A stretch of 32,587 bases of DNA, taken from NCBI GenBank assembly GCA_905235905.1, contig CAJONO010000212.1, positions 1 to 32,587 on the forward strand, given 5' to 3'. Below the pieces are notes generated by a model. That model had not been told where the DNA came from. It saw nothing but the letters and a program-made list of their open reading frames with translations, and made no database searches. The position numbers were made by a program, and so were the translations under genes. Each line of letters opens with the position of its first letter. Position 1 is the first letter of the stretch. This document shows positions 2,797 to 24,630 of the stretch, in pieces. Source of the DNA: an uncultured Prevotella sp. (lineage in GTDB: Bacteria; Bacteroidota; Bacteroidia; Bacteroidales; Bacteroidaceae).

Positions 2797-4058
2797 TGGC
2801 AAGATTGACAATACAAGACCTGGCGGCTGTGCTCATGAAGAAAAACAGTCTGCCGGAGGATGAAGCGCTGAAGTTCGTAACGGCTATCTTTGATGTGATT
2901 CAGATGGGTGTTGAACTCGATAAAACTGTGAAAATCAAGGGGCTGGGTACGTTTAGGGTGATAGATGTCGATGCCCGGGAGAGTGTGAACGTAAACACGG
3001 GTGAACGGGTGGTAATCGATGGCCATGCCAAGATTTCGTTCGTGCCTGACGCTACGATGAAGGAACTTGTAAACAAACCTTTTTCTGGCTTCGAGACGGT
3101 GGTGCTCAATGATGGGGTTGAGTTCAGCGATATTTCCATGCAGGAAGAAGACGCTCCTTCTCAGGATGATGATGAAACTGCCGAAAGCATGGTGGAAGAA
3201 TCGGTTGCAGAAGAGCAGCCAGAAGTAGCTGAAACTCCTGTAGAGACAGTCAACACTCTTGAGGAGGAAGTCCCTGTTGAGGAGGAAGTCCCTGTTGAGG
3301 AGGAAGTCCCTGTTGAGGAGAAAGCCCCTGTTGAGGAGGAGGTCCCTGTTGAGGAGGAGGTCCCTGTTGAGGAGGAAGTCCCTGTTGAGGAGGAGGTCCC
3401 TGTTGAGGAGGAAGTCCCTGTTGAGGAGGATACCCCTTGTTCGGCTCCCGTCATTGACATGCCTGTTGATACGGAGGAGAAGGAGGACGAGTCTCAGCAT
3501 AGCAAGATGTGGATAGTTTGGACGTTATTGGCTTTGGTGGCATGTGGGGCGAGCTTCGTAGCTGGTTTCTGTTTGGGTAGTAACTATTCGCCGGAAGTGG
3601 CGATGCCGGTTGACGAGAAGCCTGTTTCTGCAGCGACATCAGAGCAAAGCCCGACTGCCATAGCACAGAACGACAGCATAACGGAAAAGAACGCTCTTGT
3701 TTCCGGGAAGAGCGATTCTGCTAAGACCGTTGTCGCTACCATTGAGGAACTGGAACGAAAGGGAAAAGACGAGATGACGGACTCTCTTATTGTGGAGGCT
3801 AACAAGAAATATGCTGCGATGGACGCCCGTATTCGTACAGGTGCCTATTATATTGTAGGCACGAAACAGGTGGTCAAGGTGCGTGAGGGCGACACGCTTA
3901 TGAGAATTGCCCGTAGAACTGTAGGCCCGGAATTGTTGTGCTATATTGAGGCATATAACGGTATCAAAGCCACTGATTCCTTGAAGGTAGGCCAGACGGT
4001 GAAGATTCCTGATTTGAAATGGAAAAAGTATTTTAAGAAAAAACAATTAAATAAGTAA
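2796..4058 (+). CDS. HU-like domain protein with acidic PVEEEV repeat, single TM helix and C-terminal LysM domain
   Basis: HU-like N-terminus (VKIKGLGTFRVIDVDARESVNVNTGERVVIDGHAKISFVPD); TM WIVWTLLALVACGASFVAGFCLG; LysM VVKVREGDTLMRIARRTVGPELLCYIEAYNGIKATDSLKVGQTVKIP. The ORF track start at 2793 is GTG; ATG at 2796 overlaps the preceding stop. Confidence 0.85.
   Translation: MARLTIQDLAAVLMKKNSLPEDEALKFVTAIFDVIQMGVELDKTVKIKGLGTFRVIDVDARESVNVNTGERVVIDGHAKISFVPDATMKELVNKPFSGFETVVLNDGVEFSDISMQEEDAPSQDDDETAESMVEESVAEEQPEVAETPVETVNTLEEEVPVEEEVPVEEEVPVEEKAPVEEEVPVEEEVPVEEEVPVEEEVPVEEEVPVEEDTPCSAPVIDMPVDTEEKEDESQHSKMWIVWTLLALVACGASFVAGFCLGSNYSPEVAMPVDEKPVSAATSEQSPTAIAQNDSITEKNALVSGKSDSAKTVVATIEELERKGKDEMTDSLIVEANKKYAAMDARIRTGAYYIVGTKQVVKVREGDTLMRIARRTVGPELLCYIEAYNGIKATDSLKVGQTVKIPDLKWKKYFKKKQLNK
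3261..3422 (+). repeat. 18-bp tandem repeat (GAGGAGGAAGTCCCTGTT), 9 units plus a degenerate tenth, encoding EEEVPV
   Basis: Direct reading; one unit varies to EEKAPV. Confidence 0.95.
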
Positions 4059-12278: not shown

Positions 12279-13071
12279 AGCCCCCCTTTCGTCCCCCGTG
12301 GGGGATACAATAGCATCTGAAGCCTCCTCGGGGGCAGCAGGGGGGGCTATTGCGCAATACTTAGGGAAGCACGGTTTTGAGGCACTGCACCCCAAAGCCG
12401 TGCTTTTTGATATGGACGGGGTGCTCTATGACTCGATGCCCAACCATGCCGTAGCCTGGCAAAAGTCGATGGAGAGGTTTGGCATCAAGATGCTCCCGCA
12501 GGATGCCTACGCCACCGAAGGAGCACGAGGAGTAGATACTATCAGGCAGATGGTCAGGAAACAGCAAGGACGTGACATCGACGAGGCAGAGGCCCAACGC
12601 ATGTACGATGAGAAGACACGCATTTTCCATCAGATGCCCGAGCCAAACATTATGCCTGGCGTTCTCGAACTAATGGCGCAAATCCATGCCGACGGCCTGT
12701 TAGTGGGGGTGGTCACAGGTAGTGGCCAGCGTCCCCTTATCAATCGACTTCTCAAGGATTTTGGCCGTTTCTTGGACGAGAGCCAGATAACAACGGCTTA
12801 CGATGTGAAGCAGGGGAAACCGAACCCCGATCCCTATCTCAAGGGGCTGCAAAAAGCAGGAAACCTCGAGCCATGGGAAGCAGTGGTAGTCGAGAACGCC
12901 CCACTTGGTGTCCGTGCCGGCGTTGCTGCCCGTATTTTCACTATTGCAGTTAATACTGGTCCCTTGCATGCAGATGCCTTGCTGCAGGAGGGTGCCAACC
13001 TCATTTTCAGCCAGATGCCCGAATTGAGCAGGCAATGGCAACATCTTTTCAGCTATGATAAACCAAGATGA
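12271..13071 (+). CDS. HAD-family hydrolase (beta-phosphoglucomutase/phosphatase-like)
   Basis: [58 protein letters not shown] at 12271 is the plausible start; the ORF-track start at 12208 lies deep in pgi. Confidence 0.9.
12279..12348 (+). repeat. G/C-rich imperfect inverted repeat at the pgi/HAD junction
   Basis: AGCCCCCCTTTCGTCCCCCG ... TCGGGGGCAGCAGGGGGGGCT. Confidence 0.75.
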
Positions 13072-17522: not shown

Positions 17523-18293
17523 ATGACGATAACAATTCTCGGCACAGGAACATCGTGCGGCGTACCCGTCTTGGGCTGCCAGTGCAAGGTGTGCCAGAGC
17601 ACCGACCCGAAAGACCACCGCCTGCGTTGCTCCATTTTGGTGGAAACCGAAGAAACACGCCTGCTCGTTGATTGCGGGCCTGATTTCCGACAGCAGATGT
17701 TGCCACAGCCCTTCCGGCGCATCGACGGCATCCTCATCACCCATGCCCACTACGACCACATGGGCGGCATGGACGACATTCGACCCTATTGCCAGTTTGG
17801 AGCCATCAATGTCTATGCCGATGCCACTGCATGCAAGGGCATGCTGCAGATGCTGCCCTACTGCTTCGCCCAGAATCGCTATCCCGGAGTGCCCGCCATC
17901 GGCCTGAACGAGGTGGAAGCCGGTCGCCCCCTGCGCATCGGCGACATCGACGTGCTGCCCATCCGCGTCATGCACGGCCCACTGCCCATTCTCGGCTATC
18001 GGTTCGGCCCCTTTGCCTATATCACCGACATGAAGACCATCGACCCCGACCAGCTGCCCCTCCTTCAGGGCGTCGAGGTGCTGATGGTGAACGCCCTGCG
18101 GTTCGACAAGCCCCACCATTCCCACCAGTTAGTGGCCGATGCCGTGGCCTTTGCAAGGCAGGTGGGAGCCAGACAGACACTGCTCACCCATCTGTGCCAC
18201 GACATCGGCCTGCACGGTGAAGCCTGCTCCCGGCTACCTAAAGACATCAGCCTGGCCTACGACGGGCAGGTGGTGGAAATTCATAATTCATAA
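17523..18293 (+). CDS. MBL-fold metallo-hydrolase (PhnP-like)
   Basis: LGTGTSCGVPVLGCQCKVC, DCGPDFRQQ, THAHYDHMGGMDDI. Confidence 0.93.
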   Translation: MTITILGTGTSCGVPVLGCQCKVCQSTDPKDHRLRCSILVETEETRLLVDCGPDFRQQMLPQPFRRIDGILITHAHYDHMGGMDDIRPYCQFGAINVYADATACKGMLQMLPYCFAQNRYPGVPAIGLNEVEAGRPLRIGDIDVLPIRVMHGPLPILGYRFGPFAYITDMKTIDPDQLPLLQGVEVLMVNALRFDKPHHSHQLVADAVAFARQVGARQTLLTHLCHDIGLHGEACSRLPKDISLAYDGQVVEIHNS

Positions 18294-18317
18294 TCATAGT
18301 TCATAATTCATAATTAT
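18282..18317 (+). repeat. TTCATAA/TTCATAG heptamer-type array overlapping the 3' end of the MBL-fold gene
   Basis: attcataattcataatcatagttcataattcataatta. Confidence 0.85.
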
Positions 18318-18321
18318 AGGA

Positions 18322-19794
18322 ATGAAGTACTACAGCACAAACGGAAAAGCACCACTGGCCAGCCTAAGAAAAGCCGTGGTGAGAGGTCTGGCCGAAGACC
18401 GCGGCCTCTACATGCCCCAGCAAATCAACAAGATGCCCAAAGTCTTCTTCGACGACATGCCCCGGCTGTCGTTCCAGGACATAGCGTTCAACGTGGCCGA
18501 GACCTTCTTCGGCGAAGACGTCGATGCCGACAGCCTGCAGGACATCGTCTTCGACACCCTGCGCTTCGACTGCCCCGTGGTCAGGGTCACCGACCGCATC
18601 TACAGCCTTGAACTCTTCCATGGGCCCACGCTGGCCTTCAAGGACGTGGGAGCGCGCTTCATGGCCCGCCTGTTGCAATACTTTCTAAGAGTTGAGAGCG
18701 GAGAGCTACCCCTCAAACCCACCCCCGCCCCCTCCCAAGGGGAGGGGAGTGTAGATAGTTCTGTAACCTCAGATTCAAGTAGAAAGAGTAACCAAGCTCC
18801 CCTCCCCTTGGGAGGGGCTGGGGGTGGGTATCAACCCTCAACCCAAGTGACCGTGCTCGTGGCCACCAGCGGCGACACAGGCTCGGCCGTGGCCAACGGA
18901 TTCCTCGGCGTCGAGGGCATCCACGTCTGCGTACTCTATCCCAAGGGCAAGGTGTCGCCCATACAAGAGTGCCAGTTCACCACACTGGGCAGAAACATCA
19001 CCGCCATCGAAGTCGACGGCGTGTTCGACGACTGTCAGGCACTCGTAAAAAGCGCCTTCATGGACGAAGAGCTGCGCCAGCACCTGCAGCTCACCTCGGC
19101 CAACAGCATCAACGTGGCCCGCTTCCTGCCACAGGCGTTCTACTATTTCAACGCCGTGGCGCGGCTCTCAACCCTCACCCCTCACCCCTCACCCCTTGTG
19201 ATGTGCGTTCCCAGTGGCAACTTCGGCAATATCTGTGCCGCCCTCTTTGCCCACGAGATGGGACTGCCCATCGACCGCTTCATCGCAGCCAACAATGCCA
19301 ACGACATCTTCTACAAATACCTGCAGACAGGACAGTACACCCCCAAGCCTTCGAAGCAGACGCTGGCCAACGCCATGGACGTGGGCGATCCCTCGAACTT
19401 CGCCCGGATAGCCAGCCTCTACAGCAATGGCGGCAAGCTGACGGCACAACAGACCCACCAGCGCATAGCAAGCCTCATTGGCGGCGCCACCTACAGCGAT
19501 GAGCAGATCAAGGACACCATGAGGCGATGCTACGACCAGACGGGCTACATACTCGACCCACACGGAGCCTGCGGCTACCGAGCCCTCGAAGAGCAGCTGC
19601 GGCCCGGCGAGGTAGGCGTGTTCTGCGAAACGGCCCATCCAGCCAAGTTCAAGGAGAAGGTCGACGATATTCTCGGCATCGACCTGCCCATACCCGAACG
19701 CCTGCAAGCCTTCATGAAAGGCACAAAGCAGACCGTGCCCATGACAAAGAACTTCCAAGACTTCAAGGCTTACCTCATGAGCACTTTGCGCTGA
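18322..19794 (+). CDS. thrC: Threonine synthase with two low-complexity in-frame insertions
   Basis: YYSTNGKAPLASLRKAVVRGLAEDRGLYMP, FHGPTLAFKDVGARFMARLLQY, VLVATSGDTGSAVANGF, VPSGNFGN. Confidence 0.95.
   Translation: MKYYSTNGKAPLASLRKAVVRGLAEDRGLYMPQQINKMPKVFFDDMPRLSFQDIAFNVAETFFGEDVDADSLQDIVFDTLRFDCPVVRVTDRIYSLELFHGPTLAFKDVGARFMARLLQYFLRVESGELPLKPTPAPSQGEGSVDSSVTSDSSRKSNQAPLPLGGAGGGYQPSTQVTVLVATSGDTGSAVANGFLGVEGIHVCVLYPKGKVSPIQECQFTTLGRNITAIEVDGVFDDCQALVKSAFMDEELRQHLQLTSANSINVARFLPQAFYYFNAVARLSTLTPHPSPLVMCVPSGNFGNICAALFAHEMGLPIDRFIAANNANDIFYKYLQTGQYTPKPSKQTLANAMDVGDPSNFARIASLYSNGGKLTAQQTHQRIASLIGGATYSDEQIKDTMRRCYDQTGYILDPHGACGYRALEEQLRPGEVGVFCETAHPAKFKEKVDDILGIDLPIPERLQAFMKGTKQTVPMTKNFQDFKAYLMSTLR
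18689..18846 (+). repeat. Composite insertion in thrC: heptamer-like flanks around a large palindrome (arms about 18717-18749 and 18797-18829)
   Basis: ACCCACCCCCGCCCCCTCCCAAGGGGAGGGGAG ... CTCCCCTCCCCTTGGGAGGGGCTGGGGGTGGGT; flanks gagttgagagcggagag and tcaaccctcaaccc. Confidence 0.9.
19165..19197 (+). repeat. CTCACCC heptamer array inside thrC
   Basis: ctctcaaccctcacccctcacccctcacccctt. Confidence 0.85.
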
Positions 19795-21963
19795 ATGAAA
19801 AAAAAACTGATCATTTTGCCATTGCTGTGCGCAGGCATGACGGTGGCGGCACAGGGCGACGTGAGGACACATGGCCATGAGGAAGACTCGACCGATGTGT
19901 TCTTCCGTCATTTCAGCCTGAACGAAGTGACGGTGACCGGCATCACCGGCGACACGAAGCTGAAGCATGCCACGGCACCCATGAGCATCGTCACGCCACA
20001 GATGCTGCGGGCCACGGCCTCTACCAATATTATCGATGCCATCAGCCATCAGCCAGGCATCAGCCAGCTGACCACCGGCGGCAGCATCTCGAAGCCCATC
20101 ATACGCGGTCTGGGCTATAACCGCGTGGTGGTGATGAGCGAAGGTGTGCGGCAGGAAGGACAGCAATGGGGCGACGAGCATGGCATAGAGGTCGACGGCA
20201 GCAGCGTAGGCTCGGCAGAGATTATGAAAGGGCCAGCCTCGCTGATGTATGGTTCGGACGCCATGGCCGGCGTTGTTATCCTGCATCCCCATGCCCTGCC
20301 GGCAGAAGGAGAGACGCAGGCAAGCATAGCCACGGAGTATCAGACCAACAACGGCCTCTTTGCCTACCATCTGGCCATGGCAGGCTGCCAGCGGGGCTTC
20401 GTGTGGAACGCGGGCTACAGCGACAAGATGGCACATGCCTATAAGAACCCCTACGACGGATACGTGCCAGGCTCACAGTTTCGCCAGCGGGCAGGACGGC
20501 TCATGTTGGGACTGAACAAGCAGTGGGGACACTCACGGCTGACGTGGACGGCCTACCACCTGACGCCGAGCATAGCCGAGGGTGAGCGCGACCCCGAAAC
20601 GGGGCGGCTGCTGTGCGCGTCGGCTGCGCCCACAAGCTACGCCAAGACCCTGCCCTTCCAGCAGGTGAGGCACTACAAGCTGGTGAGCGACAACTCGCTC
20701 AGACTGCCCTCGGGCTACGTGAAGGCCGTCATAGGCTATCAGCAGAACCGGCGTCAGGAGTTCGAGGAGAGTGCCGACGACTACGAGCTGTTCTTCAAGC
20801 AGCACACGCTGACCTACGACCTGCGCTACGTGACCAGCGAGCTGGGCAGCTGGAAGCTGTCGGCAGGCGTCGGCGGCATGTATCAGAAATCGGGCAACGA
20901 GGGCGAGGAATACCTCATACCCGACTACCAGCTGTTCGACTTCGGACTCTATGCCACAGCCACCAAGACGTTAGGCCACCACTGGCAGCTGAGTGGCGGA
21001 CTGCGCTACGACCACCGCCGTCTGCACGGCGACGAGCTTACGGAGGATGGCCGACAGCGCTTTGCCGACTTCTCGCGACACTTCGGCGGCCTCACGGGCA
21101 GCATAGGCGCTGTCTGCAACATAGGCAGACAGCTGAACCTCCGACTGAACGTGGCCCGCGGCTTCCGTACGCCCAACATGAGCGAGCTGGCATCGAACGG
21201 CGTTCACGAAGGCTCACTGCGCTACGAGATAGGCTCACGGCAGCTGAAGGCAGAATACAGCCTGCAGGCCGACCTCGGACTCGACTACAGTTCCAGCCGC
21301 CTCTCGGCACAGCTGGCACTCTTCGCCAACCGAATAGACAACTATATCTACGTCCGCCGGCGGCCTGATGTCGTGGAGCCAGGTTATCTCACCTACGCCT
21401 ACACACAGGGCGATGCCCGGTTGCTCGGCTTCGAGGCAGGCATCGACTTCCATCCACTCCACTCAGTCCATTTCTCGAACACATTCAGCTATGTCGATGC
21501 CCGGATACTGCATGCCACGCACGAAACGAAGTACATCCCCTTCACGCCCGCCCCGCGATGGAACTCGGAGCTGAAGTGGGAACTCCTACACCACTCCCAC
21601 AGTACAGTAGGCCACCGGCACCTCTCACCCCTCACCCCTCACTTCTCACCTCTCAACAACCTCTATCTCGCTGCCCAGACAGAGTGCTGCCTGAAGCAGA
21701 CGCACATCTACAGTTCCGACGAAACCGAGACCGAGACCCCTGCCTACGTGCTGCTCAGCCTCGCCGTCGGCACCGATGTCATGGTAAAGGGAAAGAAGAT
21801 TGCCCAATTGCACGTAACGGCCGACAACCTTCTCGACAAGGCCTACCAGAACCATCTGAGCCGACTGAAATATACCGACGAGAACGTGGTCACGGGCCGT
21901 CGCGGCGTCTGCAACATGGGGCGTAACATCACGATAAAAGTCGTGGTGCCCATCAGCATGTGA
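19795..21963 (+). CDS. TonB-dependent outer membrane receptor
   Basis: Signal peptide; plug (FSLNEVTVTG, ISKPIIRGLGYNRVVVMSEGVRQEGQQWGDEHG, EIMKGPASLMYGSDAMAGVV); beta-barrel with FRTPNMSEL and C-terminal aromatic-rich strands. Confidence 0.93.
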   Translation: MKKKLIILPLLCAGMTVAAQGDVRTHGHEEDSTDVFFRHFSLNEVTVTGITGDTKLKHATAPMSIVTPQMLRATASTNIIDAISHQPGISQLTTGGSISKPIIRGLGYNRVVVMSEGVRQEGQQWGDEHGIEVDGSSVGSAEIMKGPASLMYGSDAMAGVVILHPHALPAEGETQASIATEYQTNNGLFAYHLAMAGCQRGFVWNAGYSDKMAHAYKNPYDGYVPGSQFRQRAGRLMLGLNKQWGHSRLTWTAYHLTPSIAEGERDPETGRLLCASAAPTSYAKTLPFQQVRHYKLVSDNSLRLPSGYVKAVIGYQQNRRQEFEESADDYELFFKQHTLTYDLRYVTSELGSWKLSAGVGGMYQKSGNEGEEYLIPDYQLFDFGLYATATKTLGHHWQLSGGLRYDHRRLHGDELTEDGRQRFADFSRHFGGLTGSIGAVCNIGRQLNLRLNVARGFRTPNMSELASNGVHEGSLRYEIGSRQLKAEYSLQADLGLDYSSSRLSAQLALFANRIDNYIYVRRRPDVVEPGYLTYAYTQGDARLLGFEAGIDFHPLHSVHFSNTFSYVDARILHATHETKYIPFTPAPRWNSELKWELLHHSHSTVGHRHLSPLTPHFSPLNNLYLAAQTECCLKQTHIYSSDETETETPAYVLLSLAVGTDVMVKGKKIAQLHVTADNLLDKAYQNHLSRLKYTDENVVTGRRGVCNMGRNITIKVVVPISM
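21620..21656 (+). repeat. CTCACCC-type heptamer array inside the TonB receptor gene
   Basis: acctctcacccctcacccctcacttctcacctctcaa. Confidence 0.85.
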
Positions 21964-21968
21964 GAGGT

Positions 21969-22034
21969 GATACCCACCCTCAGCCCCCAAAAAACTACCC
22001 CCAGCCCCTCCCCTGGGAGGGGCTGGTGGGTATC
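21969..22034. repeat. Palindromic element related to the thrC insertion
   Basis: GATACCCACC...CAGCCCCTCCCCTGGGAGGGGCTGGTGGGTATC; shares GGGAGGGGCTGG and GTGGGTATC with the thrC element. Confidence 0.85.
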
Positions 22035-22035
22035 A

Positions 22036-22096
22036 GTTAGGCATTAACTCTCGCGGAGTTAGGCATTAATTCTCGCGGAGTTAGGCATTAACTCTC
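22036..22096 (+). repeat. 22-bp tandem repeat GTTAGGCATTAACTCTCGCGGA, 2.8 copies
   Basis: Direct reading; copies start at 22036, 22058 and 22080. Confidence 0.92.
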
Positions 22097-23438: not shown

Positions 23439-24565
23439 TACTCAGCAGGGGTTTCTTTCGCGTCGGCCGGCGCTTGTTTCTTGGGCTGCTCCTTCGAGCG
23501 GAACCTTGCCTTCTCGCTTTCGTCACGCTTCTCGTGGTAGAGCTTGGGCAGGGGGCTGCGCAGCGGCGCATCGTAGTTGTTGCGATTGCGGAAGGCATCG
23601 ATGGCCATGTAGATGGCATGGCGCATAGGGTTGGCATCGAGCTTGTTCTGGCCTGCGAGGTCGAAGTGCGGGTCGTGGGCGGGGGCTGTGCGGACGAGGG
23701 GCAGGCCTGCCGTGAAGCGTATGCCGTCTTCGGGTGCCAGTGTCTTGAAGGGGGTGGTGCCCTGGTCGTGGTACATGGCGAGTGTGCCGTCGAAGTGCTC
23801 GTAGTAGCCAAGGCCGAAGTAGCTGTCGGCGGCGTAGGGGCCAAAGGCTTGTATGCCCTGTTTCTCCAGTTCTTCTATGGCGGGGGCTATCGTCTCTTTC
23901 TCCTCTTCGCCCAGTGCTCCGTCCTCGCCACAGCGTGGGTTCAGCGAGAGCACGGCAATGCGGGGGGTAGAGATGCGCAGGTCGCGGCGCAGTGCCTCGT
24001 GGAAAAGCCTGCCTTTCTCTACGATGATTTGCTTGGTGAGAGTTTCGGGAATGTCTCTGATGGCCAGGTTGTTGGTTACCAAGGCCACCCGCACGTTGTC
24101 GTTGGTGAGGATGCTGATGGCTTTCTCGCTGCTGCCGAGCATGCGCTCCAGATAGTTGGCGTGGCCTTGGAAGCCTCTGATGGTGCTACGGCAGACGGGG
24201 GCTGTTACGAGCACGTCGAAAGCTCCTTTCTTGTAGTCTTCGATGGCACGGTCGAGGGCTTGCAGGGCAGCTTGGCCCGACTCGGACGTCGGTTGGCCTA
24301 ACTCTATCTTGATGTCTGCGTCGCCAAAGCAGTTGAGCATGTTCACTTGGTCGTCTTTAGCCTCGCTAATGTCGTTGATGACGGTGAAGGGTATCTCTAT
24401 GTTGAGTGCCTTGGCATGATAGGCTGCCGCCTTTGGCGAGCCGTAGACGATGGGTGTACACAGTTCTGTCATGGTGGGGTCGCCAAAGGCTTTGAGAATG
24501 GCTTCGTAGCCCACTCCGTTGGTATCGCCATGTGTGATGGCAACTCTTATTTTCCTTTTATCCAT
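23438..24565 (-). CDS. pdxA: 4-hydroxythreonine-4-phosphate dehydrogenase
   Basis: ITHGDTNGVGYEAILKAF, TAPVCR, GHANYLERML, MYHDQGTTPFKTLAPEDGIRFTAGLPLVRTAPAHDPHFDLAGQ. Confidence 0.93.
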   Translation of the reverse strand: MDKRKIRVAITHGDTNGVGYEAILKAFGDPTMTELCTPIVYGSPKAAAYHAKALNIEIPFTVINDISEAKDDQVNMLNCFGDADIKIELGQPTSESGQAALQALDRAIEDYKKGAFDVLVTAPVCRSTIRGFQGHANYLERMLGSSEKAISILTNDNVRVALVTNNLAIRDIPETLTKQIIVEKGRLFHEALRRDLRISTPRIAVLSLNPRCGEDGALGEEEKETIAPAIEELEKQGIQAFGPYAADSYFGLGYYEHFDGTLAMYHDQGTTPFKTLAPEDGIRFTAGLPLVRTAPAHDPHFDLAGQNKLDANPMRHAIYMAIDAFRNRNNYDAPLRSPLPKLYHEKRDESEKARFRSKEQPKKQAPADAKETPAE

Positions 24566-24568
24566 AAT

Positions 24569-24630
24569 TTATAGTTCATAGTTCATAGTTCATAATTCAT
24601 AATTCATAATTCATAATTCATAGTTCATAG
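24569..24630 (+). repeat. TTCATAG/TTCATAA heptamer array between pdxA and rlmN, overlapping the rlmN stop codon
   Basis: tttatagttcatagttcatagttcataattcataattcataattcataattcatagttcatag. Confidence 0.92.

Follow-up and report, generated by a model that had tools for sequence, protein, structure and literature searches.

The threonine synthase gene (thrC) of an uncultured Prevotella sp. carries in frame a 113-bp palindrome, which is most probably one copy of a mobile, non-autonomous element with a harmless coding strand whose landings in loops are kept. We directly observed a repeat family, its dispersal, its in-frame residence with a bias in orientation and frame, empty sites, and a predicted disordered insert in an intact ThrC fold. 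These observations are consistent with a mechanism in which the consensus would keep one frame open on one strand and encode there a short, hydrophilic, disorder-prone peptide, while the element spreads to new genomic places. After a sense, in-frame landing in a surface loop or linker, the protein would still work despite some 35–40 additional floppy residues, and the landing would be kept; other intragenic landings would be lost by selection. That is, loop insertions would be tolerated because the consensus keeps one strand open, and we infer that the insert is translated, that the host proteins are active and that bad landings are purged.

The window, by which we mean the whole stretch of 32,587 nucleotides that was analysed, is a single contig (C212) of a draft genome that is 82% complete and consists of 231 contigs. 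On its plus strand, thrC (18322–19794) encodes a protein of 490 amino acids with the Pfam domains Thr_synth_N and PALP. Within this gene, the palindrome occupies positions 18717–18829 of the plus strand in what we call the 'A' orientation and encodes (K)PTPAPSQGEGSVDSSVTSDSSRKSNQAPLPLGGAGGG(Y). Inverted-repeat detection delimited a left arm of 33 nt (ACCCACCCCCGCCCCCTCCCAAGGGGAGGGGAG, 18717–18749, plus strand) and, beyond a 47-nt spacer (18750–18796, plus strand) that makes the element directional according to copy comparison, a right arm of 33 nt (18797–18829, plus strand), which can pair with the left arm at 31 of its 33 nucleotides (94%). A sequence-only reading of this DNA had described just such a palindrome of about 113 bp with roughly 31/33 complementary arms, free of stops in the coding frame, and the ORF 18322–19794 is indeed open across it. 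The heptamer-like flanks in opposite orientations that it had reported were also found, on the left in the minus strand (GAGTTGAGAG, 18688–18716) and on the right in the plus strand, where two units, TCAACCC TCAACCC, can be read (ATCAACCCTCAACCC, 18830–18844). The RNA strand of the palindrome folds at −79.6 kcal/mol (z = −8.0), a value equalled by none of 200 shuffles, and its DNA fold reaches −41.6 (z = −8.2). By chance, the arm core occurred 0 times in 100 shuffles of the window. An Rfam search gave nothing above a gathering score, and the sub-threshold hairpin matches were to microRNA models only.

The encoded protein was compared with E. coli threonine synthase (1vb3), which it matched in a sequence search (E = 5e-104) as well as in a fold search (E = 9e-36). 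In the alignment only 4 residues of 1vb3 lie opposite residues 122–174 of the window ThrC, so the earlier estimate of about 50 extra codons was correct; 39 of the extra residues come from the 113-bp element and the remainder from the heptamer-like flanks. The stretch from FKDVG to SGDTG has 77 residues here, versus 31–44 in 29 relatives. The alignment for empty sites that had been proposed as a check yielded 29 orthologues without the insert, and the palindrome-encoded residues were absent from all of them. The loop at this position is a length hotspot in the genus. From its length variation (31–44 residues between the motifs) one might suppose that ThrC of this lineage has long possessed the extra residues as a conserved, functional segment. 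We consider this scarcely credible, since the residues occur in no relative, each species has its own loop sequence, and the same DNA is found in unrelated genes.

AlphaFold modelling of ThrC from a 28-sequence alignment gave a pTM of 0.81 and a pLDDT below 50 for residues 132–172, and the best PDB match of the model was a threonine synthase; the model thus predicts an intact fold with a disordered insert. That thrC might be a pseudogene, or the insert an assembly artefact, could be argued from the fragmented and incomplete draft, in which the copy in parE sits on a contig break. However, the ThrC frame runs open for 490 codons and the motifs that 27 relatives conserve are retained, most in-gene copies of the element lie well inside contigs, and the pattern recurs in independent assemblies, for instance with an insertion in metK of the public MAG Prevotella sp. 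Tb.RUG.318. We therefore regard a pseudogene or artefact as highly improbable. Another ThrC loop of variable length, which spans 32–52 residues between two motifs among relatives, also contains repeats: here, a heptamer array (CTCACCC x4.3, 19167–19196, plus strand) is read in frame (RLSTLTPHPSPL). Some relatives (L019, L022 and L025) have heptamer-like repeats in the insert loop or in this second loop.

Searching the whole genome with the arm, as the sequence-only reading had proposed, returned 63 matches, so further copies exist. Together with the residues being present in 0 of 29 orthologues, this means that the outcome named beforehand as refuting that reading, a lack of other copies and conserved residues in orthologues, did not arise. 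A mismatch scan of the stretches around the matches resolved 24 full-length copies in the own genome, together with many half or compact ones. We refer to them as family 1, with a consensus of roughly ACCCACCCCCnnCCCCTCCCnAGGGGAGGGG-AGTTTAGATAGTTCT...AAAGAGTAACCAAGCT-CCCCTCCCCTnGGGAGGGGnnGGGGGTGGGT; the full-length relatives of the thrC palindrome elsewhere in this genome are 94–96% identical to the consensus query. Four copies, in thrC, in a menE-like gene, in a TonB receptor gene and at one intergenic site, have a near-identical spacer. Such near-identity at unlinked sites is the best evidence that family 1 moved recently, and its apparent mobility is deduced from these sequences. Family 1 matches were found in 109 of 200 genomes sampled from the genus, versus 11 of 293 from the rest of the order, where nearly all were the arm alone (Fisher p = 4e-40). 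Two named records, a Prevotella MAG and a Prevotellaceae MAG, also show the pattern. Besides the thrC copy, the window holds a compact degenerate one (21994–22031) in the intergenic region 3' of the ORF 19795–21963. It is adjoined by a 22-bp tandem repeat of 2.8 copies (22035–22096), likewise between genes.

Beyond what had been read from thrC, in-frame residence in genes is a habit of the whole family. About half of the full copies lie within conserved genes, which in the own genome are, by NCBIfam names, dnaE, mnmG, a gltD-type gene, dnaG and gyrB, in addition to thrC. Further hosts are menE-like, RsmF-like methyltransferase, CPA2 antiporter, M3 peptidase and TonB receptor genes, whose NCBIfam matches (menE, RsmF, antiporter, peptidase, TonB) fall below the curated cut-offs. 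The parE host gene, named from its sequence only, is split over two contig ends. All 12 in-gene full copies of the own genome are in frame and none of its full copies breaks a gene, the remaining ones being intergenic or at gene starts. Among relatives, the host genes, read by eye, resemble uvrA, metK, miaB, pyrG, prmC, gltB, mfd, RNase R and argS.

The in-gene copies also share their reading direction. Ten of the 12 have one common orientation and frame (sense-A frame 2). Across 21 copies, three of the six frames are mostly open (in 17, 16 and 14 copies), and compared with an equal use of these three the preference for one of them is significant (p = 5e-4). When oriented in-gene copies of the own genome and of relatives were combined, 31 used sense-A frame 2, 8 used sense-B frame 0 and 5 used others. 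Copies in the sense frame measure 74–128 bp, and all lengths are 2 mod 3, that is, they differ by multiples of three. The peptide of the preferred frame is hydrophilic and reads PTPxPS(R/Q)GEGS(L/V)DSS...K(S/G)NQ(A/T)PLP(S/L)GG(A/V)GGG, or PTPxPSRGEGSLDSS...KSNQAPLPSGGAGGG; hydrophobic and aromatic residues (FWYILMVC) make up 13% of it, versus 29–33% in the two rival frames. Two consensus-like peptides matched no Pfam family. Spacer substitution did not differ between coding (0.43/0.30/0.44 at codon positions 1/2/3) and non-coding copies (0.37/0.30/0.42). These rates match and so give no evidence of selection for the peptide as such; the non-coding copies may have arisen recently from coding ones.

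The insert might be transcribed but not translated, its hairpin being excised at the RNA level or skipped by the ribosome, as in Magnusiomyces mitochondria. Its very strong hairpin, its presence in essential genes and the precedent of bypassed elements quoted in PMC6649704 would fit. Yet an open frame would then be unneeded, whereas all in-gene full copies of the own genome are open and in frame; the length differences by multiples of three (an argument that is partly circular) and the lack of any frame-breaking copy in this genome point the same way. We judge removal or bypass very unlikely.

The earlier description of the element as MITE- or REP-like stood for its shape and failed for its defining features, namely a target-site duplication, a GTAG/CGTC tag and an association with Y1/RAYT transposases. 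Bacterial MITEs such as ERIC, RUP, NEMIS and Coxiella QMITE1 are small and non-autonomous and have terminal inverted repeats; some contain open frames and form in-frame fusions. Similarly, the Prevotella element has terminal inverted repeats and no transposase gene inside. It differs in the target-site duplication, which the sequence-only reading had suggested looking for and which we did not detect: over 85 copies, direct flank matches of 1–10 bases stayed at chance level.

If the element were an ordinary REP doublet (REPIN/BIME) that owed its movement to a RAYT (a Y1 tyrosine transposase) and entered genes only incidentally, its two inverted, hairpin-rich arms and the missing target duplication would be accounted for, and Y1 transposases are present in the genome. 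Short palindromes or doublets of the GTAG/CGTC type do sometimes lie in genes, often in those for replication or repair (uvrA, dnaE), where 20–30 residues are translated in more than half of the cases (PMC3733652). But REPs are tagged and mostly intergenic (PMC3733652), whereas the Prevotella element is an untagged two-arm unit of about 113 bp with about half of its full copies in genes; neither GTAG nor CGTC was found at its ends, which are ACCCACCCCC and GGGGGTGGGT in nearly all copies. In addition, three Y1 genes were clearly recognized in the own genome, and their 1–1.5 kb flanks contain no arms. Over 100 genomes, the presence of a Y1 gene was unrelated to that of family 1 (36/53 versus 28/47, p = 0.41), and several near-complete genomes carry family 1 without any Y1 gene. 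The missing flanking copies and the missing co-occurrence rule against a RAYT/Y1 transposase as the mover, and we consider a REP doublet of this kind unlikely.

Nesting in a heptamer array, also proposed from thrC, applies to that copy and to some others and is no general trait. Heptamer arrays adjoin 6 of the 24 full copies versus 2.1% of control positions (p = 9e-6). Because most copies are without heptamers, the arrays are an association and not a part of the element; they may be landing sites of family 1. Elsewhere in the window, two opposite heptamer arrays (GTTGAGA... and CTCAACC...) form an inverted pair with no palindrome between them (1526–1597). Two A+T-rich arrays lie directly 5' of thrC (AATTCAT x5.6, 18278–18315) and between two minus-strand ORFs (CATAATT x9.6, 24563–24629). 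An 18-bp tandem repeat (TTGAGGAGGAAGTCCCTG) of 9.6 copies with 94% matches is located inside an ORF (3259–3430).

Orthologues free of the element were aligned at five sites, in thrC, dnaE, gyrB, the M3 peptidase gene and metK. The empty sites read YGTPLP in dnaE, DLRPDEEGNLREPE in gyrB, YIDRKGENVRP in the M3 peptidase and GVDRADEEEQGAG in metK. Identity to the nearest relatives is about 80%, and with their differing loops a small deletion at the target looks the same at the junctions as a later change of the loop. At the metK site, the 115 matching genomes as listed include only two with an alignment that spans it completely, namely one relative (G023) and the own genome; a third is G213, the source of the query locus L080.

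The insert in the own metK proved to be a different palindrome, AGAGCCCCCCTTTCGTCCCCCGAGGGGG...CCCCCTCGGGGGCAGTAGAGGGGGCTTTG, which we call family 2 and which occurs at more than 20 places in the own genome. At 18 of 20 fetched own-genome loci, two of which overlap, it is in frame within a long ORF, and most loci fetched from relatives use the same frame. Its peptide is APLSSPEGDTI...K(S/T)NEAPSGAVGGA or near, or APLSSPEGDTI..KTNEAPSGAVGGA. Hosts are, by NCBIfam, metK, ileS, clpA, glmM, obgE and typA, plus mnmG and dnaG. Within the genus, 39 of 150 genomes contain the family. Family 2 behaves like family 1 in residing in frame in conserved genes, and we count this in support of the thrC insert being a mobile palindrome. 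The window has a family 2 copy of its own (12279–12348, plus strand), immediately behind the stop codon of the preceding gene, where it forms the in-frame N-terminus of an ORF whose motif DMDGVLYDS suggests a putative HAD-like phosphatase.

Both families end their spacers with K(S/T)N(Q/E)AP, and single genes of the own genome carry both: in mnmG, two units of family 1 accompany one of family 2, and dnaG has one of each. One metK loop contains different palindrome families in different species (L179 in the own genome, L080 and L088 in relatives), which suggests a repeated landing site. It is conceivable, though we put it forward tentatively, that several selfish palindrome families (at least two, probably three) with a coding strand of their own exist in Prevotella. 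Different arms would have converged on one frame and the same kind of disordered peptide with the shared ...K(S/T)N(Q/E)AP..., selection on the element would be for harmlessness when translated, and throughout the genome the families would add inserts to enzymes of replication, translation and metabolism, as a continuing natural source of protein linkers.

In-frame coding palindromes are best known from Rickettsia, with scattered REP cases elsewhere. The Rickettsia palindromic elements (RPEs; Ogata et al. 2000, 2002) are described in PMC10969869 and PMC3733652; they are about 150 bp long and form ten families, and in R. conorii nearly half of them lie within ORFs (PMC10969869). RPEs resemble the Prevotella element as palindromes of about 100–150 bp with many copies (here 113 bp and 24 full copies), as in-frame residents of unrelated conserved genes with one conserved peptide, and in having several families per genome. 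In contrast, the Prevotella element belongs to another phylum (Bacteroidota) and to a host not known as intracellular, has G+C-rich arms and another peptide, is genus-wide and is associated with heptamers. By behaviour and description it appears to work like an RPE, a comparison that implies no membership in that group. Long inverted repeats inside protein-coding genes are also known from mitochondria of Nematomorpha, where both arms of coding palindromes encode conserved residues of the host gene (PMC6649704), whereas the Prevotella palindrome is an extra insert common to unrelated genes. In the open-access literature we found no paper on coding palindromes in Prevotella, which is no proof of their absence there.

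In-frame coding palindromes are abundant here in a common, partly culturable genus; counting both families, they reside in dozens of genes, many of them vital, and their hosts include highly conserved proteins such as DnaE, DnaG, GyrB, ParE, MnmG, MetK, IleS and ObgE. The old question of whether selfish DNA can adapt to translation and build protein segments becomes testable in laboratory strains. For annotation, a low-complexity insert of 25–40 residues in a conserved enzyme can stem from repeat DNA.

Two further observations concern other loci. Four loci of relatives (L089, L105, L127 and L141) have arms of a third type, CCCTCCCTGTGAGGGAGGGG or similar, with the in-frame peptide HPQPLPxGRG...IYSPPSQGGAGGG or similar. 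At locus L042, an ORF (105–1079), read by eye, appears to be an in-frame fusion of a DUF559-type-like start with a TrmH-like RNA methyltransferase, the two being linked by a half element (KKSNQAPLPSGGVGGGY).
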